From a virus, in IMG/VR virus record IMGVR_UViG_3300023109_002746, positions 1 to 52,443 of that record: a DNA stretch of 52,443 bases. One strand, 5' to 3'. The notes under the pieces were generated by a model. It was not told the origin of the DNA and did no database searches. It saw only the letters and a list, made by a program, of their open reading frames with translations. The position numbers and the translations under genes are program-made. This document shows positions 1,572-39,595 of the stretch, piece after piece. Position 1 is the stretch's first letter. Every line of letters starts with the position of its first letter.

Positions 1572-2012
1572 TTAGAAGGCTACTGATATCGATACACCAA
1601 TATGATCATTATGAGCTACCACTCCCCATCGACCTATGTTTCCTCCGATCAATGCAGGTACAAGATCGTCTGGTTCATACGATCCTATCATATAGTATAA
1701 GCCACTCAAGAGCAAACCATTGATAATTAGTGATTTGTCCTTCGATGGATTATTTCCATAGATGAGCGTATTTTCCTCGCTAAAACAATTACAAGGATGA
1801 TTCAAGGCCCACTGTGTTTGCTTATGGTCAACGTATGCCGCAAGAGTATAACCACTGAAAAGAAGCTGCTCCTTTTTAGTCCAGTCTTCAAAGTGTCTGA
1901 TCTCACTCTTCGCGGCACATGCAAATACTAGAAATAATAAAGCTAGTAATTTACTAACCTTCCCCAAGTGGATTGTCGAGTGCTTTTTGTATTGTATCTC
2001 GTAAACTTTCAT
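1572..2012 (-). CDS. Exported or membrane-anchored hypothetical protein
   Basis: 146 residues from the ATG at 2012, which has GGAG seven bases upstream. This start overlaps the preceding gene by 59 bases; a shorter TTG start would place the hydrophobic stretch (KLLALLFLVFACAA) at the very N-terminus like a signal peptide. A second hydrophobic segment (LIINGLLLSGLYYMIG) suggests membrane contact. The tail (GVVAHNDHIGVSISVAF) could form outer-membrane-like beta strands. Last gene of the exported-protein cluster at 1.5-5.9 kb. Function unknown. Confidence 0.65.
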   Translation of the reverse strand: MKVYEIQYKKHSTIHLGKVSKLLALLFLVFACAAKSEIRHFEDWTKKEQLLFSGYTLAAYVDHKQTQWALNHPCNCFSEENTLIYGNNPSKDKSLIINGLLLSGLYYMIGSYEPDDLVPALIGGNIGRWGVVAHNDHIGVSISVAF

Positions 2013-2508
2013 CTAGCTTCTCCATCTTATCATCAATACGATCTTCTACTTCCCTCATCGTATTTCTAACGTCCTTTTCGGACTCTCTGCTGATGTCTGA
2101 TACTTGTCGCAATCTTGTGTCAATCTCGTCTTGTACTGTCTTCACTCGGTTGCTAGCCGACTCAGCTACTCTTTCTGTTCTTATAATGTCATCACGTAAA
2201 CTATTCTTAATATCTCGAGTGTACTCAATAGCATCATCTAATTTACGCTCAATCGCTACGTTACGAGCTTCTACTGCTTCGATATCTAATACTTCAAGCT
2301 TTTCGCTCATCTCTTGAAAAGCTTTGTATGATTCAAATCCACCATACAATGCAGCGAGTATTGAACTCAGTAAACCAAACGCTACACCTATTGTTGTCGG
2401 AGTCATACTGATTCCGAACAACTGGAATTTTTTGTTCTTTAGATTCTCGACACCTTCTTCAAGGTTTTCTGTCATCTCACCTAAGTCTTTTTGTTTTCTT
2501 CTTGCCAT
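1954..2508 (-). CDS. Membrane protein with long coiled coil
   Basis: 184 residues. A charged N-terminus (MARRKQKDLGE) precedes one transmembrane segment at about 36-60 (GVAFGLLSSILAALYGG). Residues 65-175 form a highly charged heptad-rich coiled coil (IDTRLRQVSDISRESEKD region). Similar proteins recur in marine T4-like phages without known function. It overlaps its neighbours on both sides within the exported-protein cluster and could be an inner-membrane scaffold for it. That role is inference. Confidence 0.75.
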   Translation of the reverse strand: MARRKQKDLGEMTENLEEGVENLKNKKFQLFGISMTPTTIGVAFGLLSSILAALYGGFESYKAFQEMSEKLEVLDIEAVEARNVAIERKLDDAIEYTRDIKNSLRDDIIRTERVAESASNRVKTVQDEIDTRLRQVSDISRESEKDVRNTMREVEDRIDDKMEKLDESLRDTIQKALDNPLGEG

Positions 2509-2624
2509 GTTTTAGCCTCTCGTGCCAACGTCAGGTTGGTCGTTCTTATTATTAATGAACCATCATCAGAATATACTGTGTATGTTCTTCGCAGTTCTCT
2601 ATCGATTTCAACTCTATAAGTCAT
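2481..2624 (-). CDS. Small hypothetical protein (47 aa)
   Basis: A short frame from ATG 2624 to TAG 2481 (start MTYRVEIDRELRRTY). It is joined to the previous gene by an ATGA overlap and extends 28 bases into the next gene, typical of translational coupling. The sequence reads as a small beta-strand pair followed by a helix (VEIDRELRRTYTVYSDDGS). No recognised family. The tight junctions on both sides support it as real. Confidence 0.55.
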   Translation of the reverse strand: MTYRVEIDRELRRTYTVYSDDGSLIIRTTNLTLAREAKTWQEENKKT

Positions 2625-3085
2625 GTTATCAGTACCAAAGTACCAAATACCACAACTCCCGCAAGCAGCACAGCGCCTACACCTATCAGTATATCAGTCC
2701 AGAATGCTTTGTTTTCTGCTTTTTTACGAGCGGCTGCCATACGAGCGTTACGTATTTTTCTACGTTCCCGCATCATATCTTCGTAAAAATTGATTTGACC
2801 TGAATAGATCAAGAAATCTCGTAGCTCTTTCTCGATGTTTGCTATACGGTGATTTGCTGCCGTAATCTGCAAAGCCTGAGCTTCAACGCTCTTGCCCGAG
2901 AAAATGCTTTTCATTTTCGACGTATTGCGTGCTTCTATTGCTGCTTCTGCTATACTTTCTTTCGCGTCAAAAAATCTTGTAAAACCTTCGTAGAGATCTT
3001 GTGCTTCTCGACCTCTCTCCACACCATTCTTTATCATGTTATAAGCAGAGCCAGCTAGCTGTAAAGCTACTGTAACTTCCACCAT
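2621..3085 (-). CDS. Membrane protein with C-terminal anchor
   Basis: 154 residues. The N-terminus is hydrophobic-amphipathic (MVEVTVALQLAGSAYNMI), the middle is Arg/Lys-rich and helical (MMRERRKIRNARMAAARKK), and a single transmembrane helix closes the protein (DILIGVGAVLLAGVVVFGTLVLIT). Probable tail-anchored inner-membrane protein. It lies between the exported proteins and the coiled-coil membrane protein, so it may be part of the same complex. Function not recognised. Confidence 0.7.
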   Translation of the reverse strand: MVEVTVALQLAGSAYNMIKNGVERGREAQDLYEGFTRFFDAKESIAEAAIEARNTSKMKSIFSGKSVEAQALQITAANHRIANIEKELRDFLIYSGQINFYEDMMRERRKIRNARMAAARKKAENKAFWTDILIGVGAVLLAGVVVFGTLVLIT

Positions 3086-3110
3086 GATTATTTACCCTTC
3101 AGTGTTTTCC

Positions 3111-3557
3111 TTAGTTTTCAAATTTTAATTGCTTTAACTGTTGTATCTCTTGTCGCAGCTTCATGACTTCTAGACGTTTCTTTTCGAGTTCAAGTGCGTA
3201 TAGTTTACTACAATCCAAACGCTCTTTAGGAGCACCGATTGGAATCGTAATCCTACCATACACACCAACATCTCGAACAAAATTGTCGGAAAACTGATTA
3301 TAGTACATCGGGTCGTTTTGCATTGCAAACTGATTCATCAATGGATCGCTCTGGTTTAAAATACCCACAACTCCAAATTCTACATTAGTAGAAGAACCAA
3401 TCGCTGCAGAACACTCAACGTCTCCAGCTCTTACTCTATCACTTTGAAATGATGTTTGAGATTGTGGAATTGCGAGGTTTAAGCTACTTTGTCCGTAAGC
3501 TCCACCACACCAAAATCCGACAACAAAATACACCATCATTATTAATATTCTAGTCAT
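3111..3557 (-). CDS. Exported protein with C-terminal coiled coil
   Basis: 148 residues with a Sec-type signal peptide (hydrophobic MMVYFVVGFWCGGAYG, likely cleavage after AYG). The mature part starts QSSLNLAIPQSQTSFQSDRV, has a GRITIPIG strand and two cysteines, and ends in a charged coiled coil (ELEKKRLEVMKLRQEIQQL). This type of exported protein recurs in marine T4-like phages, function unknown. It overlaps the previous gene by eight bases. The coiled coil could bind another cluster product; that is inference. Confidence 0.7.
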   Translation of the reverse strand: MTRILIMMVYFVVGFWCGGAYGQSSLNLAIPQSQTSFQSDRVRAGDVECSAAIGSSTNVEFGVVGILNQSDPLMNQFAMQNDPMYYNQFSDNFVRDVGVYGRITIPIGAPKERLDCSKLYALELEKKRLEVMKLRQEIQQLKQLKFEN

Positions 3558-3933
3558 TTTTAATCTTCGAACATATTCTAGATGATATAACAGTAGCTGA
3601 AAAATCTTCAGCTAGCAACTTAGATCGAGAGCAAATATACACAGCATTTTGTAGATCCACTTCTCGAATGTAGACTTCAATGTCAATTTGACGAAGATAA
3701 TCAAGTCTTAATATTCTTTCTTTGGTCGCAAATGTGACCGACTTCATATCTTTATCTAACACTTGTATTTCATAGTAGGAAACTTCTGGCCTACCATTAA
3801 ATAACTTTAGTCTAGTACTATATATCCCATCTACAAAGGAGGGACTTAAAACAGGATACGTAGGTGTCCATTGATGCGCCTGAACTGACCCACCAATGGA
3901 CAACAGCATCCATACTATCAAAAACTTCATCAT
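3550..3933 (-). CDS. Exported protein with PapD/pilus-chaperone-like Ig pattern
   Basis: 127 residues with a signal peptide (FLIVWMLLSIGGSVQA, cleavage before HQWTP). The mature protein alternates short beta strands: STRLKLFNGRPEVSYYEIQV, then RILRLDYLRQIDIEVYIREV. This resembles the N-terminal Ig domain of periplasmic pilus chaperones, where a strand of N-x-x-P type is followed by a YxV strand. The second chaperone domain is absent. The next gene downstream of it in the genome order (upstream in transcription) looks pilin-like. The similarity is by eye and tentative. Confidence 0.55.
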   Translation of the reverse strand: MMKFLIVWMLLSIGGSVQAHQWTPTYPVLSPSFVDGIYSTRLKLFNGRPEVSYYEIQVLDKDMKSVTFATKERILRLDYLRQIDIEVYIREVDLQNAVYICSRSKLLAEDFSATVISSRICSKIKND

Positions 3934-3946
3934 ATAAATTTCTCAT

Positions 3947-4462
3947 TTAGATTGCTATACACTCAGCTTGTACAATGGCACGGTAAGTTCCCGCTGGCCA
4001 AGACTTCTGATATCCGTATTGTACTTCCGACTCAACTTTAAACCATGTGCTACCGGCGTAAGTTAATGCAATTTCTGTAACATTATCGTACTCAATTTTA
4101 TCTGTGTCGTAAGAAGACATCTGAGCATCAGAAACTTCTTTTACAGATACTTCACCAGTCCACGCAGTGGTGTCAGTTAAAGCAGGACTTTCAGAAAAAG
4201 AAATTGGATGTGTGATGTATGCCTTGTAGTAGCTAGATTGAACTACGTCATAGCGAATCACTGGCTCCACACCAGCATCAGCTTGAGCTGTGCTTAACTT
4301 GTATGGAAGTGGGTTACCATAAATACCCATCGTGTCTGTAGTCACTGTGCATCTTGATTCAACAGTTCCCACTAAAGGGGTGTCAACTGCTAATGCGGTG
4401 CTGGATGCCAATGGGGCTGCCAACACAGCCAGTCCGAGTATTACTTTATTCAGTTTGAACAT
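3947..4462 (-). CDS. Exported pilin-like/spore-coat-U-like protein
   Basis: 171 residues with a clear signal peptide (VILGLAVLAAPLASSTALA, cleavage before VDTP). The mature part is beta-rich with two cysteines, one near the N-terminus (SRCTV) and one in the last strand (AIVQAECIAI), suggesting one disulfide linking first and last strands. The ending WPAGTYRAIVQAECIAI resembles the closing strand of fimbrial or spore-coat-U domains. Homologous-looking proteins occur in marine T4-like phages. A surface or periplasmic role is inferred. Confidence 0.6.
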   Translation of the reverse strand: MFKLNKVILGLAVLAAPLASSTALAVDTPLVGTVESRCTVTTDTMGIYGNPLPYKLSTAQADAGVEPVIRYDVVQSSYYKAYITHPISFSESPALTDTTAWTGEVSVKEVSDAQMSSYDTDKIEYDNVTEIALTYAGSTWFKVESEVQYGYQKSWPAGTYRAIVQAECIAI

Positions 4463-4477
4463 TTATTGTTCTCCTTA

Positions 4478-5368
4478 TTATTTTTCGCTTTTATACTGCA
4501 AATTTACCAACTCATTATGCAATTTATCTTGCGCAAAGTTCACTCGTCTAGCCCGAGTATTATCGGGTAGAGTACCATCTTTTAGCTCAACCTTTTCTAT
4601 ATAACTCGTTGAGGGCAATGCGACTAAGTAGCTTGTAGGGATCAAGTCTAATGCTTGTAGTCCTGCAAAAGCTAACTGAGAAGCTCCCGCCATAGCGGTC
4701 CCATTTTCTGCGCCGAGGAGTTTTTCAAGGCGTTCGTCTTCGCCTTCTTTCTCTTCAGCGAATTTTTGTCGCTGTCGTTCGTCTTCGTCTTCTTCATCCA
4801 TTACAGCTTTTCTATCAAGTTCTGCTTGGACTAAATCATCGTCCATTGGATCATAAGCGACAACTTCACCACCGATAGGTATCGACGGATCTTTCCAGCC
4901 TGGGCACCGCGGATCAGATTGTGGATCAAAACAAGGATCGTATTTGTATCCATAGACAACCATTGGATTTTCTACGCTACCTTTGCCTTCAACTTCAATC
5001 GAACCCAGTCCCCATAATTCTCGAGGTATATTCGATACACCTACAGCTTTATTAATTGTGTTGCCTGGGATTCCCGACCAATCATCAGTCTCACGGAAAA
5101 TATATCCAGGCCCTTGTGCATTCTCGTTTTGAACATGCACTAGCATATCGTCATCTTCTTCTTTAATCGTTGTATAACGATAGATGACTGTATTCACTGT
5201 TAAACCAGCTTGCTGAGGTAATATATTCTGCATCACCCACTGCAAACCAAAATCAGCGGCATTGTTAGTTGAGCCGTACTGAGTTTCGGTCGTAAACGAA
5301 TCAGAGTAAGAGTAGGAGGAGCAAACTAGCAACGCCAGCCCCGCCAAGAAGTGTCTTCGAACTATCAC
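4478..5368 (-). CDS. Large exported protein of a marine T4-like family
   Basis: 296 residues. The start is a GTG at 5368 with an excellent AGGAGG six bases upstream, read in a different frame inside the end of the preceding gene (68-base overlap). Signal peptide (FLAGLALLVCSSYSYS), then a beta-rich domain with FRETDDWSGIPGNTI and WGLGSIEVEGKG, a cysteine pair (DPCFDPQSDPRCPGW), and an acidic/charged helical region (EEDEDERQRQKFAEEKEGED) before a hydrophobic stretch. The RETDDW-GNTI-WGxGSI pattern recurs in exported proteins of marine T4-like phages, function unknown. Confidence 0.7.
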   Translation of the reverse strand: MIVRRHFLAGLALLVCSSYSYSDSFTTETQYGSTNNAADFGLQWVMQNILPQQAGLTVNTVIYRYTTIKEEDDDMLVHVQNENAQGPGYIFRETDDWSGIPGNTINKAVGVSNIPRELWGLGSIEVEGKGSVENPMVVYGYKYDPCFDPQSDPRCPGWKDPSIPIGGEVVAYDPMDDDLVQAELDRKAVMDEEDEDERQRQKFAEEKEGEDERLEKLLGAENGTAMAGASQLAFAGLQALDLIPTSYLVALPSTSYIEKVELKDGTLPDNTRARRVNFAQDKLHNELVNLQYKSEK

Positions 5369-5891
5369 TCATGCCCTCCTTTTCTTTAGTGTCGTTTGGC
5401 TGAGCTTCAACATCAGCTTGCCAAGCAACTTTGGCTGCATCTCCGATTTGCCCATCGTAAGGACAAGGCGTACCGGCCATCATCATTGCATCAAAGACTC
5501 GTTTGTCCTGACACATTGTCGATACTGCAGCAACTTTCATTCCCATATCGTATAGAGTTTTTGAAAGTTTTAACCTTTCGCAATTATCGTCAGTAACTTG
5601 CGTCCCTGTCGATATGCCCAAAATTTGTGTTTGAATCGCCCCTGCTACACCGAAAGTACAAAGATCCGAGTTCGATGTGTTGATCGTCGGAGTAATCGCC
5701 GATGCAGGTGGTGATTTCAAAGTTGTAGTAGTGTTACCTTGCGTAGTTACCGTACTCGTCGATATCGAATCTGTTCGTATTACATCGTCCGGTAATGTAC
5801 TTCCATCGTCTGGAGTCGTTTCATTTTCTTGAGCGACTGCACAAGCTGATGCCACGAGTAACAATACTAACCCTAATTTGATCAATTTCAT
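5301..5891 (-). CDS. Exported protein with four-cysteine domain and C-terminal hydrophobic tail
   Basis: 196 residues from the ATG at 5891; an earlier in-frame TTG is less likely. Signal peptide (LIKLGLVLLLVASACAVA), a Thr/Ser-rich linker, then a conserved-looking domain with four cysteines (LCTFGVAG, DDNCERLKLSKTLYDMGM, TMCQDKRVFDAM, GTPCPYDGQIG). It ends in GGAGVASLLLLLLL, a possible membrane or sorting tail. First gene of the exported cluster, with a near-consensus late promoter (GATAAATA) 47 bases upstream. Function unknown. Confidence 0.7.
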   Translation of the reverse strand: MKLIKLGLVLLLVASACAVAQENETTPDDGSTLPDDVIRTDSISTSTVTTQGNTTTTLKSPPASAITPTINTSNSDLCTFGVAGAIQTQILGISTGTQVTDDNCERLKLSKTLYDMGMKVAAVSTMCQDKRVFDAMMMAGTPCPYDGQIGDAAKVAWQADVEAQPNDTKEKEGMSDSSKTLLGGAGVASLLLLLLL

Positions 5892-5937: not shown

Positions 5938-5945
5938 TATTTATC
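5938..5945 (-). promoter_or_regulatory. Possible late promoter (GATAAATA)
   Basis: One mismatch from the T4 late element TATAAATA, 47 bases before the ATG at 5891. It would express the exported-protein cluster late. The gap 5892-6019 otherwise holds only TGTCA/TGACA repeats, including the short palindrome at 5985-6002. Confidence 0.4.
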
Positions 5946-17853: not shown

Positions 17854-17861
17854 TATTTATC
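17854..17861 (-). promoter_or_regulatory. Possible late promoter (GATAAATA)
   Basis: One mismatch from TATAAATA, 32 bases before ATG 17822 of the RuvC-like gene. T4 resolves branched DNA late, so the position makes sense. Confidence 0.4.
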
Positions 17862-18375
17862 ACTCTGCTCTATAGAAGATATGAGAACCAATGTGACCTA
17901 CTAAACTAAACCGCGTACGCCACGAAGGTTCTACATAAGTCGCATGATAGTGTGTTGCACCTTCAGTGATACCTCGATACAGACCACCTTCGATCATTTG
18001 ATATGCAACGAGCCGGCTTTCAGCCCAAGCATCCATATCAGTAGGATCATCACTACGACCATCACAATACCAACTAAACTGGCATTTGTTTCGAACAGGT
18101 ACTTCACGCCCTTGCTCAAGATGCCACTTACTTAATACAGCTTGCTTTACAACACCACAAATTGTATTAGGATAGCGATTATCATTAACACGATTCAGTA
18201 CAACATCTGATACAGCAAACTTACCAGCAAGATTCTCACTACGAGCTTCGTGGTAAACATTCAGTGCAAGACAATACTCGTCGTCACTGATTACTTGAGC
18301 ATCTGCAACATACGATTGAGCGAAGAAGTATAACAATATGATTGCTATACCAGCATGAGTTCTAGTAATTTTCAT
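17860..18375 (-). CDS. SleB-type cell-wall hydrolase, exported
   Basis: 171 residues. Signal peptide (AGIAIILLYFFAQSYVADA), then a complete Hydrolase_2/SleB domain: YCLALNVYHEARSE (catalytic Glu43), AVSDVVLNRV, FSWYCDG and GATHYHATYV. These enzymes cut peptidoglycan (lytic transglycosylase or amidase). Being exported and early-transcribed, it may loosen the wall or block superinfection rather than act as the main endolysin, which is the T4-type lysozyme at 35491. ATGA overlap with the next upstream gene. Confidence 0.85.
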   Translation of the reverse strand: MKITRTHAGIAIILLYFFAQSYVADAQVISDDEYCLALNVYHEARSENLAGKFAVSDVVLNRVNDNRYPNTICGVVKQAVLSKWHLEQGREVPVRNKCQFSWYCDGRSDDPTDMDAWAESRLVAYQMIEGGLYRGITEGATHYHATYVEPSWRTRFSLVGHIGSHIFYRAE

Positions 18376-33260: not shown

Positions 33261-33289
33261 ATTATAACAGGTCTAGGTGCAAATGTCAA
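33261..33289 (-). promoter_or_regulatory. Sigma70-type promoter, TTGACA class
   Basis: -35 TTGACA (33289-33284), 17-base spacer, -10 TATAAT (33266-33261), 37 bases before ATG 33224. It overlaps the stop of the previous gene. It probably drives the primase-ThyX-NrdAB-ALAS block. Confidence 0.9.
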
Positions 33290-33807
33290 CCAATAAATGA
33301 CATTAAATCAAATTCAGAAGCCATAGTGAGCACGAAAGCAACCGTAGCAGCCATACCTAGTATCCACCACTTCCCATTTTCAATCCCCCTCAAGCGGCTC
33401 TCCTGATCTTCAGTGGCAGCCTTGAGTTCATTCATACGTAGGTCGAGATTACCGTTGAGCTTACTCAGAGCATCCATAATTTCTTTATTACGTTCGGATC
33501 GATTCAGAGCGTTTTGATCGGATAATCTCTTATGATCATCTTTGGAAGCAGCGCGGTATTCTTCGAGACGTTTGTGAAGTACTTTGGTACGAGCAATGTC
33601 TTCTTGCTTATGCTCTTCGACATTTTTTTTAATGTCTGATAGTTGATTGTCAAAGTGTTCGATGATTTGTTGCTGAACAGCGACGCCCTTGGCCATATCT
33701 GACATTTCTGACATAACCGTGTCGACTTTGTCGAAAAAACGTTCGATTGTTTTGATGTCTTTCTTTATAAGAGCGACATCTGTTTTTAGATGATCTTGAT
33801 CTGACAT
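33286..33807 (-). CDS. Tail-anchored coiled-coil membrane protein, XhlA-like shape
   Basis: 173 residues. A long coiled coil (about 10-140: HFDNQLSDIKKNVEEHKQED and similar) ends in one C-terminal transmembrane helix (GKWWILGMAATVAFVLTMAS). This architecture with ESRLRGIENGKWW before the helix resembles XhlA/haemolysin-type lysis accessories. It lies beside the spanin genes but has its own early-type promoter (33835-33863), so a lysis role is only one option. Confidence 0.65.
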   Translation of the reverse strand: MSDQDHLKTDVALIKKDIKTIERFFDKVDTVMSEMSDMAKGVAVQQQIIEHFDNQLSDIKKNVEEHKQEDIARTKVLHKRLEEYRAASKDDHKRLSDQNALNRSERNKEIMDALSKLNGNLDLRMNELKAATEDQESRLRGIENGKWWILGMAATVAFVLTMASEFDLMSFIG

Positions 33808-33834
33808 CTATCAAATTCTCCAGTGAACTTGGTT

Positions 33835-33863
33835 ATTATATCACCGAATCATTATATTGTCAA
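33835..33863 (-). promoter_or_regulatory. Sigma70-type promoter, TTGACA class
   Basis: -35 TTGACA (33863-33858), 17-base spacer, -10 TATAAT (33840-33835), 28 bases before ATG 33807. Perfect consensus. Confidence 0.88.
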
Positions 33864-33880
33864 CTATTTATTTGAAAGGG

Positions 33881-34441
33881 CTACTTTGATTCGGCCTGTT
33901 CTTCTATTTCTTCTGGCTTTTTCTTAGTAGTAACTTCGCGGTAGTATACGATCACCTCTCCGAGTTCACGTATGTACCTACGAAGCTCTTGAACATTACC
34001 AGACATAAGTTCATAATCTTTAATTGTAGATGCAATGAAGAGGACATCTCCACCTGTTGCAATCTTAATATCATCGATAAACTTATCTAAGTAAGTGTAG
34101 TCTTCAGGCTGGTTGGGATTTTCTTTCTCTTCTTGAGAACAAATCTTAGGCCGGCTGGTTTTAGGAGTACCGTCTTCTTTGAGTTCAGGCTCACCTGCCT
34201 CATTGAGTATTGGTACTTTTTTACAAAGGTTTGCCACTCGTGCTTCTGACACGACATACCATTGTGGGGAGTCTAGCTTTAAAGGAGATGGCATTGTAGG
34301 TTGAATGATTTCAATCTCTACTGGTTTAGCAATAATCTCAATAGTCTTTTCAGGCTGGGCACCTACACCCCATCGACCTAGTACTGAACAACCACTAATT
34401 AGGCTGATCGTCACCAAGAGCAGCAATGTTCTTGCTATCAT
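33881..34441 (-). CDS. Outer-membrane lipoprotein, probable o-spanin
   Basis: 186 residues. Lipoprotein signal MIARTLLLLVTISLISGC with Cys18 as lipid anchor. The mature part is long for an o-spanin and has a proline-rich stretch (IIQPTMPSPLKLDSPQ) and helical C-terminus (MSGNVQELRRYIRELGEVI). Its start lies out of frame inside the preceding i-spanin-like gene (47-base overlap), the classic Rz/Rz1 arrangement. Together they would fuse inner and outer membranes at lysis. Supported by layout; sequence similarity is not decisive. Confidence 0.7.
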   Translation of the reverse strand: MIARTLLLLVTISLISGCSVLGRWGVGAQPEKTIEIIAKPVEIEIIQPTMPSPLKLDSPQWYVVSEARVANLCKKVPILNEAGEPELKEDGTPKTSRPKICSQEEKENPNQPEDYTYLDKFIDDIKIATGGDVLFIASTIKDYELMSGNVQELRRYIRELGEVIVYYREVTTKKKPEEIEEQAESK

Positions 34442-34796
34442 TCTCTATCTCCTCAAAAATCTTTTTAGTTGCGCTGTTAGTGCGATTCGTAATCAACCCA
34501 GGCTTAGCTAACGCAAGCTTGTCAAGATTATGACGGGCAAAGATCGACATATAACGATCTTTCTCAGCATTAATCTCTCGGTTTTTAGACTGGAGGTTGG
34601 TTAGCGCTTTTGCCTGTTTCTCAAAGGATTCTCTAACAGCAGCCATTGCAGCTTTTTGTTCTTCAACCGCTCCTTCAAGTTGTACCACATTTCCTTTCAA
34701 TACAGCGTTATTAGCTTCGAGTATTTGATTTTGTTGATAGAACCAACCTGCAGCTCCACCTAGCGCTAGTATAATTACAAAAAAGATCTGGTACAT
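34395..34796 (-). CDS. Probable i-spanin (Rz-like)
   Basis: 133 residues with an N-terminal signal-anchor helix (MYQIFFVIILALGGAAGWFY) and a periplasmic coiled coil (VVQLEGAVEEQKAAMAAVRE; then LQSKNREINAEKDRY). Length, topology and overlap with the lipoprotein gene match inner-membrane spanins. It follows the 34796-35098 gene with a one-base overlap. Confidence 0.75.
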   Translation of the reverse strand: MYQIFFVIILALGGAAGWFYQQNQILEANNAVLKGNVVQLEGAVEEQKAAMAAVRESFEKQAKALTNLQSKNREINAEKDRYMSIFARHNLDKLALAKPGLITNRTNSATKKIFEEIENDSKNIAALGDDQPN

Positions 34797-35098
34797 TATT
34801 CTTCCTCAACGCGATAATTTAAGCCGGCATTAGCTCTTACATTAACACTCTTTTTGTCGGCTGTTATAAAATTAAGCTCTTTCCAAGTTTTCTTCAGAAT
34901 CTTAGGTACACCTTCGTATACTATATCATCTGAATTACCAAACTTAGAATCATAAGACACAGTAATCTTAAACGTAGGCTTAGTGGTCCACCACTTCCAT
35001 AACCAATGTAAACCTTTAAACGGGGATGCAAGTACTAATACAAGCCCCGTCCAAAGTTTACTACCGAATGATTTCACCCACGAGTACAGCGGTTTCAT
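34796..35098 (-). CDS. Small membrane-associated protein
   Basis: 100 residues. A Trp-rich hydrophobic segment (LWTGLVLVLASPFKGLHWLWKWW) near the N-terminus and a beta-rich soluble tail (TFKITVSYDSKFGNSDDIVY). Between the gp67-like protein and the spanins. A holin-like role is possible but unsupported. Related small proteins are known to me from marine T4-like phages. Confidence 0.6.
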   Translation of the reverse strand: MKPLYSWVKSFGSKLWTGLVLVLASPFKGLHWLWKWWTTKPTFKITVSYDSKFGNSDDIVYEGVPKILKKTWKELNFITADKKSVNVRANAGLNYRVEEE

Positions 35099-35106
35099 TG
35101 TGAATA

Positions 35107-35451
35107 TTAACCGCCACAGTTAGATGCGTATAGACCTTCTGCCTTAGCGCCAGTACAACCGTACTTCTCTTTAACTGCTTTCAGTACTTTAGCTTTAGAA
35201 GCACCTTTACCGTGCATAGCTTTCATTTCTTTAGCAACTTCTTCGTCGTCATCGCTATCATCAGAATCGTCGTCTTCAGACTCGTCTTCGTCATCTTCGT
35301 CTTCGTCATCTTCTTCTTTAGCTTCCATCATATCACGATACTTCTCTTCAAGAGCGGTACGGATACGTGCACTCATCTCCTCGTCAAAAGCTTCCTTGAG
35401 CTTCAGAGGATTGTTGTCGATCGCCGTAGCGATGATTTTTTCAATAGACAT
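35107..35451 (-). CDS. Acidic prohead core protein candidate (T4 gp67-like)
   Basis: 114 residues. The N-terminal IIATAIDNNPLKLKEAFDEE followed by MSARIRTALEEK mirrors the short start of T4 gp67, and the centre is a long Asp/Glu run (about residues 46-72), as in gp67. The C-terminal 40 residues form a separate conserved-looking unit (KGASKAKVLKAVKEKYGCTG) not in T4. An exact late promoter lies 36 bases upstream. In T4, gp67 shapes the head core and is cleaved by the prohead protease. Inferred from pattern. Confidence 0.6.
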   Translation of the reverse strand: MSIEKIIATAIDNNPLKLKEAFDEEMSARIRTALEEKYRDMMEAKEEDDEDEDDEDESEDDDSDDSDDDEEVAKEMKAMHGKGASKAKVLKAVKEKYGCTGAKAEGLYASNCGG

Positions 35452-35487
35452 TTCTATTCTCCTTAGTGGAATTTATAACTAGTTTGT

Positions 35488-35495
35488 TATTTATA
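35488..35495 (-). promoter_or_regulatory. T4-type late promoter TATAAATA
   Basis: Exact TATAAATA, overlapping the lysozyme stop codon, 36 bases before ATG 35451 of the gp67-like gene. Confidence 0.75.
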
Positions 35496-35943
35496 TAGCT
35501 TCCAGTCTCGCCATTAGACGCTCAGCGCGATCACCAACCTGGCGGAACCAAATAGAGTCACGACCTTCTGGTGCAGCACCAGCCCAATCGCCCTCTATCA
35601 ATTTTGTGTTAAAGTTTTTAAACTTGCTTAAGCGTGGACGTCCAAGATTGAAGAGCATGTTAACCAAGACTTCTTGTACTTCGTCAGGAAAATCTTCCCA
35701 GGAGTCGCCGTATAAAACAACACACTCGCTAATGGCGATATTGAGGTCTCGATCAAAGCATTCTCGTACTCGTTCTTCGTCGACAGGAGTTCCAACTGAT
35801 TGTCCGTGCTCACTATCTTCTTCAAGGACCAAGTGCCCGACTCCGAAGGTTGCATATCCAAGATGATCTTCGTAGATTTCATATACTACACCTTCATCTA
35901 TTTTAAGTTGTTCAAAAACTCTTTCTTTACTTACAGGGTTCAT
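35491..35943 (-). CDS. T4-type lysozyme (endolysin or virion lysozyme)
   Basis: 150 residues. The catalytic triad of T4 lysozyme is spaced exactly: IDEGVVYEIYEDHLGYATFG gives Glu17, Asp26 and Thr32 (Glu +9, +15). C-terminal FNLGRPRLSKFKNF matches the family. It hydrolyses peptidoglycan glycosidic bonds. No signal peptide, so release would need a holin. ATGA overlap with the upstream gene of the late block. Confidence 0.9.
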   Translation of the reverse strand: MNPVSKERVFEQLKIDEGVVYEIYEDHLGYATFGVGHLVLEEDSEHGQSVGTPVDEERVRECFDRDLNIAISECVVLYGDSWEDFPDEVQEVLVNMLFNLGRPRLSKFKNFNTKLIEGDWAGAAPEGRDSIWFRQVGDRAERLMARLEAI

Positions 35944-38688: not shown

Positions 38689-38940
38689 TTAAATCAAACC
38701 AGATATCATCTTAAGCGCATCAATCGCCTTTTGAGCATATATCTTGTTTTGTTCGCGAGCAAGGTCAGCTTCAACACCTTTCATTTCAAGTAAATCTTCG
38801 ACGAGTTCTTCATACTCGCCCAACGAAAGATTACCACTATCAAATAATTCCTTGAGCTCACGTACAGCAATTTCTGTTTGAGCATGCCATAATGTTAATT
38901 CTTCGAGTTGCTTAACATCTTCAATCAGTGTTTCTGACAT
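38689..38940 (-). CDS. Small coiled-coil protein
   Basis: 83 residues, acidic and helical throughout (IEDVKQLEELTLWHAQTEIA, YEELVEDLLEMKGVEADLAR). One-base overlap with the lipoprotein gene. Function unknown; possible assembly factor. Confidence 0.6.
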   Translation of the reverse strand: MSETLIEDVKQLEELTLWHAQTEIAVRELKELFDSGNLSLGEYEELVEDLLEMKGVEADLAREQNKIYAQKAIDALKMISGLI

Positions 38941-39326
38941 TATTTTCTTCCTCCGAATACTTCAAGTGACTGAGTCGTCACTTTATGTATGTTTTGTCTT
39001 TTAAGCCTACAATATGCATCACTAGGATTTTCCCTAGCAACCAGCTCATCAGTTAGCGAATTTAGTTTTTGATATATGGTCGTAATGTTATCATTTAAAC
39101 GGTATTTAGAATATGTATACAACCAATGAGTTCTATAATCCATTTGACTAAGAATTGGTTTCATGCACCACAGTCCGTCTTCACCCATTGCTGATATTAC
39201 ATTGAGTTCTACGAGTTTACCGTACTCAACATTATCAAAGTCACTTGGTATAAACTTACTAATAGATGTACACCCTGATAGTACAAATATGCATAATGCT
39301 AAACTTACTATATTTTTCATGTTCAT
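38940..39326 (-). CDS. Lipoprotein
   Basis: 128 residues with lipoprotein signal IVSLALCIFVLSGC (lipobox LSGC). The mature part has LVELNVISAMGEDGLWCMKP and two further cysteines. It starts inside the GroES-like gene's end (ATGA). Possibly outer-membrane; superinfection exclusion or lysis roles are both conceivable. Not recognised beyond the signal. Confidence 0.7.
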   Translation of the reverse strand: MNMKNIVSLALCIFVLSGCTSISKFIPSDFDNVEYGKLVELNVISAMGEDGLWCMKPILSQMDYRTHWLYTYSKYRLNDNITTIYQKLNSLTDELVARENPSDAYCRLKRQNIHKVTTQSLEVFGGRK

Positions 39327-39595
39327 GATATTACTGCCCTGATATAATCGGAATGGACTATGACAGCGTCTTGTCCATTAATTCTGACTGGCATTGATTT
39401 ATCCCATTGGAGATATACCGTATCGCCTTGTTCGAGCCAAGTTACTTCTGGCCCTTTAGCAATTACCACACCAGGTTCTGATGCTGTTGCTTTAACTTCA
39501 GATGATAATATAATACCACCCTCTGTCTTTGTTTCTTTTGGTGCAGCTGCTACTAACACATTGTCACCTATCATTTTGATATCACTTTTTTTCAT
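39323..39595 (-). CDS. GroES-like co-chaperonin (T4 gp31-type)
   Basis: 90 residues. Chaperonin-10 pattern: MIGDNVLVAAAPKETKTEGG followed by IILSS (mobile loop area), GVVIAKGPEVTWLEQGDTVY, and the last strand DYIRAVIS. T4 gp31 replaces GroES to fold the major capsid protein. Here the size fits GroES (about 95 residues). It lies in the late/virion block, consistent with capsid folding. Confidence 0.82.
   Translation of the reverse strand: MKKSDIKMIGDNVLVAAAPKETKTEGGIILSSEVKATASEPGVVIAKGPEVTWLEQGDTVYLQWDKSMPVRINGQDAVIVHSDYIRAVIS

Follow-up and report, generated by a model that had tools for sequence, protein, structure and literature searches.

Exported proteins make up a small minority of what lytic phage genomes encode and are seldom explained, and the question raised by this locus is what a phage would do with five consecutive genes for such proteins. 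The locus lies in a linear fragment of 52,443 bases, the whole of an IMG/VR record, which is referred to here as the window. PHROG scans of the window identified ribonucleotide reductase, DNA primase, PhoH, exonucleases and glycosyltransferases, and these genes, together with a T4-type late promoter-like box upstream of the locus, indicate that the source is likely a large T4-like phage. A preliminary description had proposed a phage-encoded surface or secretion apparatus, with a pilin-like and a chaperone-like product among its components. Open reading frame analysis confirmed the five consecutive overlapping exported-type genes exactly where it had placed them (minus strand, 3111-5891), and the membrane and coiled-coil proteins said to follow are present downstream, at 2621-3085 and 1954-2508. 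The 68-base overlap with a GTG start is that of P0008 with P0009, the RETDDW/GNTI/WGLGSI signature was located in P0008, and the four-cysteine protein with a hydrophobic tail is P0009, which has four cysteines in its mature part and the tail GVASLLLLLLL. The features are collected in Table 1.

Table 1. Genes and upstream element of the operon, in window coordinates.
Feature	Coordinates	Strand	Evidence or remark
Late promoter-like box GATAAATA (consensus TATAAATA)	5938..5945	-	47 bases upstream of P0009 start
P0009 = F9, likely exported, 196 aa, four conserved Cys, short hydrophobic C-terminus	5301..5891	-	phrog_20531 1.8e-14; alignment
P0008 = F8b, likely exported, 296 aa, GTG start	4478..5368	-	C-terminal domain common to long F8a
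P0007 = T7, likely exported, predicted pilin-like beta-sandwich, 171 aa	3947..4462	-	AlphaFold2 and Foldseek
P0006 = T6, likely exported, probable single-domain PapD-like protein (pilus chaperone N-domain-like), 127 aa	3550..3933	-	AlphaFold2, Foldseek and profile
P0005 = T5, likely exported, 148 aa, C-terminal coil	3111..3557	-	relatives in phage records and IMG/VR
P0004 = P4, helical, C-terminal transmembrane segment, optional member	2621..3085	-	phrog_32327 2e-4
P0003, 47-aa ORF	2481..2624	-	small ORFs at same place in some relatives
P0002 = NPL, N-terminal transmembrane segment, putative periplasmic coiled coil, C-terminal Asn-Pro-Leu	1954..2508	-	relatives
P0001, small membrane or exported protein overlapping P0002 end	1572..2012	-	similar ORFs in relatives

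Export of the five products is likely. A simple, home-made signal-peptide rule (not SignalP) was passed by all five genes, versus 9 of the 80 other minus-strand genes in the window, and at that background five consecutive genes would pass by chance with a probability of about 3e-5. Late expression, also suggested earlier, is strongly supported by promoter comparison, which points to the operon being switched on from a T4-type late promoter. The box in the window is one mismatch away from TATAAATA, and among relatives 21 of 42 F8b loci (a few of these being one locus fetched twice) have the exact TATAAATA no more than 150 bases upstream of F9, versus 2.6% of the 1,011 other genes of those loci, a control that takes in operon-internal genes, so that the contrast is somewhat inflated.

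Searches of sequence databases assigned no function to these proteins. F9, T5, T6, T7 and P4 match phrog_20531, phrog_37374, phrog_25455, phrog_25895 and phrog_32327, respectively, all annotated without function in PHROG, and only the matches of F9 (1.8e-14) and T5 (3.5e-7) are strong. Pfam gave no meaningful match for any of the nine proteins, or for T6 and T7 member by member; the sole NCBIfam match was a coiled-coil match of P0002 to ZorA, below cutoff; and a sequence-profile search of the PDB with T5, T6, T7 and F9 gave no real match. A nucleotide search of cultured phages and tblastn of P0008 and P0007 against phages returned zero matches.

Gene order was more informative. Its absence in relatives had been named beforehand as a possible refutation, and a synteny run found the order F9-F8b-T7-T6-T5-NPL (P0009-P0008-P0007-P0006-P0005-P0002 in the window) to be kept. 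A second scan, seeded on T5, yielded 30 non-redundant marine viral loci. Of these, 29 have F9-F8b-T7-T6-T5 in full, the remaining one being cut off by the end of its contig, and NPL comes next in 29. P4 has an equivalent in about half of the operons and P0001 is possibly another optional member; small ORFs occupy the position of P0003 in relatives L105 (47 aa) and L161 (41 aa). In several relatives (L013, L115, L123) NPL is overlapped by an ORF that resembles P0001 and has an EFRHF..WT motif.

Comparison of gene content across these and other phages shows that the operon joins two modules, one of them F9-F8-NPL, widespread in unrelated marine phages, and the other T7-T6-T5. The former occurs in most of 56 broader non-redundant loci, usually in the order F9, exported F8, NPL. 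Family F8 exists in two forms, F8a of about 500-1000 aa with cysteine repeats and acidic stretches, and F8b, the 296-residue family of the window. The trio T7-T6-T5 lies between F8b and NPL in every F8b locus that extends far enough, and zero F8a loci among the 56 carry it. It is also found alone in Vibrio, Klebsiella and Erwinia phages. Relatives of T5, with the conserved stretches DRVRAGDxECS, EFGVVG and DVGVYxxITIPIG, number 194 phage records at E<=1 and 247 IMG/VR loci. In Vibrio phages pVp-1, Thalassavirus, 51E28.4, 252E42.2, D71 and 1.205.O the order is tail-fibre-like gene, T7, T6, T5, and in Klebsiella phages Eowyn and Miami and Erwinia phage SNUABM_01 it is T6, T5, T7. The Vibrio phages with a T6-carrying trio span several families (T6 is unannotated in 1.205.O); most of the trio-bearing Vibrio phages have a tiny lipoprotein gene shortly after the trio, and in T5-like Vibrio phages the trio stands close to, and just before, holin and endolysin genes. 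F9 was not found in eight phages with the trio, nor T5 in nine phage records that have F9 and lack F8b; on this distribution the two modules are separable, each reused by unrelated phages. The large tail-fibre-like genes beside the trio, called by size and position only, lack signal peptides. The exported proteins of the window have signal peptides and no sequence pointer to tail fibres, and do not look like ordinary tail-fibre components.

F9 is a phage-associated family. Its aligned core is DLCTxGVAGAVQTQILGIS..DENCERLKLSKTLYDMGMKVAAVSxMCQDxRVFDAMMMAGTPCP, and a pattern scan located it in at least 594 IMG/VR loci, with tblastn adding 14 cultured or deposited phage records; it is carried by Pelagibacter podoviruses, myovirus Mosig, Roseobacter phages and the N4-like phage JWAlpha. 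In 84,980 species genomes it was seen in only 18 contigs, all of MAGs or single-cell genomes. A likeness of F9 'AIQTQILG' to CsgF was dropped because other F9 members are without it. Just upstream of the F9 gene of Roseobacter phage CRP-810 lies an unannotated gene for a small lipoprotein (L006:6612-6872) that is similar to a section of the F9 core (37% over 43 aa). The two forms of F8 have a C-terminal domain in common, as detected by profile-profile comparison (Prob 97.9, E 4.3e-13, 59 columns). Three F8a proteins (L053:3204-4778, L057:1552-3546, L063:1410-4445) contain C...CPGY repeats together with strongly acidic stretches that can run to several hundred residues; their N-termini, which have no Pfam match, we take to be nidogen-like.

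The third family of this module, NPL, is defined by its end. Each of 45 NPL proteins, a non-redundant set with similarities below 80%, terminates in Asn-Pro-Leu plus a few residues, an ending seen in one ORF only outside the family. When 16 members are aligned (all 16-35% identical to the window protein except one at 84%), N179, P180 and L181 are the sole invariant residues besides M1, and a coiled coil invariant only in its last three residues suggests a docking tip. P0002 and its relatives have an N-terminal transmembrane segment followed by a coiled coil, as in a type II i-spanin-like subunit, and we infer an inner-membrane anchor for NPL, its coiled coil lying in the periplasm.

The likeness of two products to pilus chaperones and pilins was upheld at the level of fold, for the chaperone more firmly than for the pilin. 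AlphaFold2 models were made from 50 aligned sequences for P0006 (T6) and 46 for P0007 (T7). The T6 model (pLDDT 90) has as its top Foldseek match in the PDB the pilus chaperone DraB (1.9e-4), with MSP domains, SafB, Caf1M, PapD and FimC further down; MSP domains, which have the same PapD-like fold, match T6 as well as chaperones do. Profile comparison of T6 with seven E. coli K-12 chaperones gave a nearly full-length match (Prob 75, E 2.5e-5), versus 0.6-1.8% in crossed controls. The match stands at 75% with Vibrio, Klebsiella and Erwinia members in the alignment and at 1.9% with a larger, mostly marine set, so the sequence signal rests on distant relatives. The C-terminal RICSKIK of T6 pairs in the alignment with ...RIKLFYRP, which closes the N-domain of the E. 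coli chaperone, and when examined for a second domain P0006 (127 aa including the signal peptide) was found to stop where domain 1 of the E. coli chaperones stops. The conserved cleft residues of PapD are R8 and K112; K123 of T6, nearly invariant beside the invariant C121, is aligned near the chaperone RIKLFYRP, and there is no clear equivalent of R8. One of the T6 matches in a viral structure library is a 116-aa protein of Klebsiella phage Eowyn, equal in length to the T6 relative that synteny identifies. The fold of T6 is thus probably of the pilus-chaperone, PapD-like type. The T7 model (pLDDT 89), with cysteines in the first and last strands, has as its top five Foldseek matches a PapG pilin domain, CfaB, 9fy9_F (a subunit of the type 1 pilus tip complex), FimG and PapG, all of them weak (best E 3e-3, none below 0.001, TMt 0.41-0.51); at the profile level the match of T7 extends over only some 40 columns at the N-terminus, part of which are signal peptide. 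These matches are suggestive of a chaperone-usher pilin-type fold.

The apparatus itself was not borne out, and the initial interpretation overall is partly supported. No usher (PF00577) was found in 22 phage records, with an E. coli control positive, although several of the IMG/VR records may be incomplete and a host usher is possible. With no usher in the records searched, and with a one-domain T6, the operon is not a chaperone-usher system by membership. Its likeness to such pili lies in two neighboring genes, one encoding an exported PapD-like protein and the other a likewise exported pilin-like beta-sandwich (PapD/FimC-type and FimA/CsuA/B-type), and the models allow that T6 and T7 may work like the chaperone and subunit of those systems. 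It differs in its one chaperone domain, the lack of an usher among the records searched, and the lack of an adhesin or classical pilin sequence match, and F9, F8, T5 and NPL are phage-only extra partners that are absent from chaperone-usher pili. Pelagiphages carry curli-type (type VIII) fibre secretion genes (PMC9599517), for which a lysis role has been proposed (PMC9004378); as here, exported proteins are co-located, occur across phage families and are suspected of building on the host surface (PMC9599517, PMC9004378). They are a precedent for phages carrying exported fibre genes, but the system of this operon differs, with no common families found and no CsgG in 16 records of phages carrying these genes (controls positive), and a curli reading was rejected on that account. 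No phage-encoded chaperone-usher-like pair was found in the literature searched, which covered few subscription papers.

The reading that we favour, tentatively and with somewhat less than even confidence, is that the genes are a single late operon whose products assemble, in an infected Gram-negative cell, into an envelope complex particular to the phage and containing a pared-down chaperone-subunit pair. NPL would be held in the inner membrane with its coiled coil across the periplasm, its C-terminal Asn-Pro-Leu docking either on F9 or on the conserved domain at the C-terminus of F8. The long F8 of many marine phages, with an adhesin-like N-terminus, cysteine repeats and an acidic stretch, would carry the complex outward; in the lineage of the window F8 is short, and the added trio would provide the outward part. 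T6 would hold T7, the exported subunit, in the periplasm, and T5 could be an outer-membrane partner. The likely purpose would be a late change of the infected-cell surface, such as receptor masking or sticking to other cells. Outward display at the surface is something we infer; how NPL docks, what T5 does and what the complex is for are guesses.

A spanin-like role was considered in view of the topology of NPL. Its likeness to two-component spanins (Rz/Rz1) consists of that i-spanin topology and the coiled coil, and the operon differs from them in having no regular outer-membrane lipoprotein partner and in sharing the window with a separate canonical pair, an Rz-like gene (34395-34796; phrog_739, 1.6e-12) overlapping a lipoprotein gene (33881-34441; phrog_812, 8e-7). 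A lysozyme gene lies at 35491-35943, this lysis set lying 28 kb from the operon, and with its own Rz/Rz1-like pair near the lysozyme gene the window is unlikely to use the operon as spanin. That the operon is an outer-membrane-disrupting lysis device, with NPL as i-spanin-like coiled coil and F9/F8 as outer partner, is accordingly judged improbable, even though late expression would suit it, F9-F8-NPL adjoins holin-like and lysozyme genes in L033, L057, L069, L082, L086 and L088, and the trio immediately precedes holin and endolysin in T5-like Vibrio phages. A lipoprotein gene rarely follows NPL (5 of 29 and 2 of 31 loci, or 7/60, by a lipobox rule; background 8/311), and spanins are already listed for JWAlpha, which carries F9, and pVp-1, which carries the trio (PMC6139136). 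In other lineages, where the module touches holin-like or lysozyme genes, a spanin-like role is possible. The lysis region (33286-35943) also encodes a coiled-coil protein with a C-terminal transmembrane segment that could be a holin. Elsewhere in the window are a second peptidoglycan enzyme, an exported cell wall hydrolase (17860-18375; PF07486, 3e-22), a 128-aa lipoprotein (38940-39326; phrog_3135), similar in size to lipoproteins encoded after NPL in L025, L148 and L163, and a GroES-like co-chaperonin (39323-39595; phrog_3188, 3e-15).

Three further readings concern the cell surface or the virion. A multi-part superinfection-exclusion or receptor-masking device, comparable to the T5 lipoprotein Llp, is unlikely but draws on the position of the trio in Vibrio phages, directly after tail-fibre-like genes and mostly shortly before the tiny lipoprotein gene; known examples are single small proteins, whereas six to nine genes are kept here, and products expressed late would act only shortly before lysis. 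Receptor-blocking exported phage proteins do exist, T5 Llp being an example (PMC9586334). It is quite unlikely that several unrelated phages build a fimbria-like structure on the infected cell from a one-domain chaperone and a pilin with no usher, T5 or F8/F9 serving as the exit and NPL as the anchor. Least probable is that the products are virion-associated, in tail-fibre decoration or entry, with signal peptides that mislead as to the site of action. T4-like virions assemble in the cytoplasm, all five N-termini are signal-peptide-like, and a membrane-anchored NPL stands in the same operon, which argues against it, while late expression and the tail-fibre-like neighbors of the trio in Vibrio phages speak for it. 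JWAlpha virions do contain an Ig-domain protein encoded outside the structural cluster, but the gel-band data for this phage, as weak evidence to the contrary, make no mention of the F9 homologue gp25 (PMC3915230).

With an envelope complex as the preferred reading, the chaperone-like/pilin-like pair is the first testable handle, the invariant NPL tail is the single mutation to make, and cultured phages open the way to experiments, pVp-1 and Thalassavirus for the trio, and HTVC115P and JWAlpha for F9. Should the fimbria-like reading prove true, it would reveal both a new way of assembling donor-strand subunits and a new cell-surface organelle made by phages. More generally, a fixed late operon put together from two reusable modules that unrelated phages share points to phage activity in the host envelope just before release.
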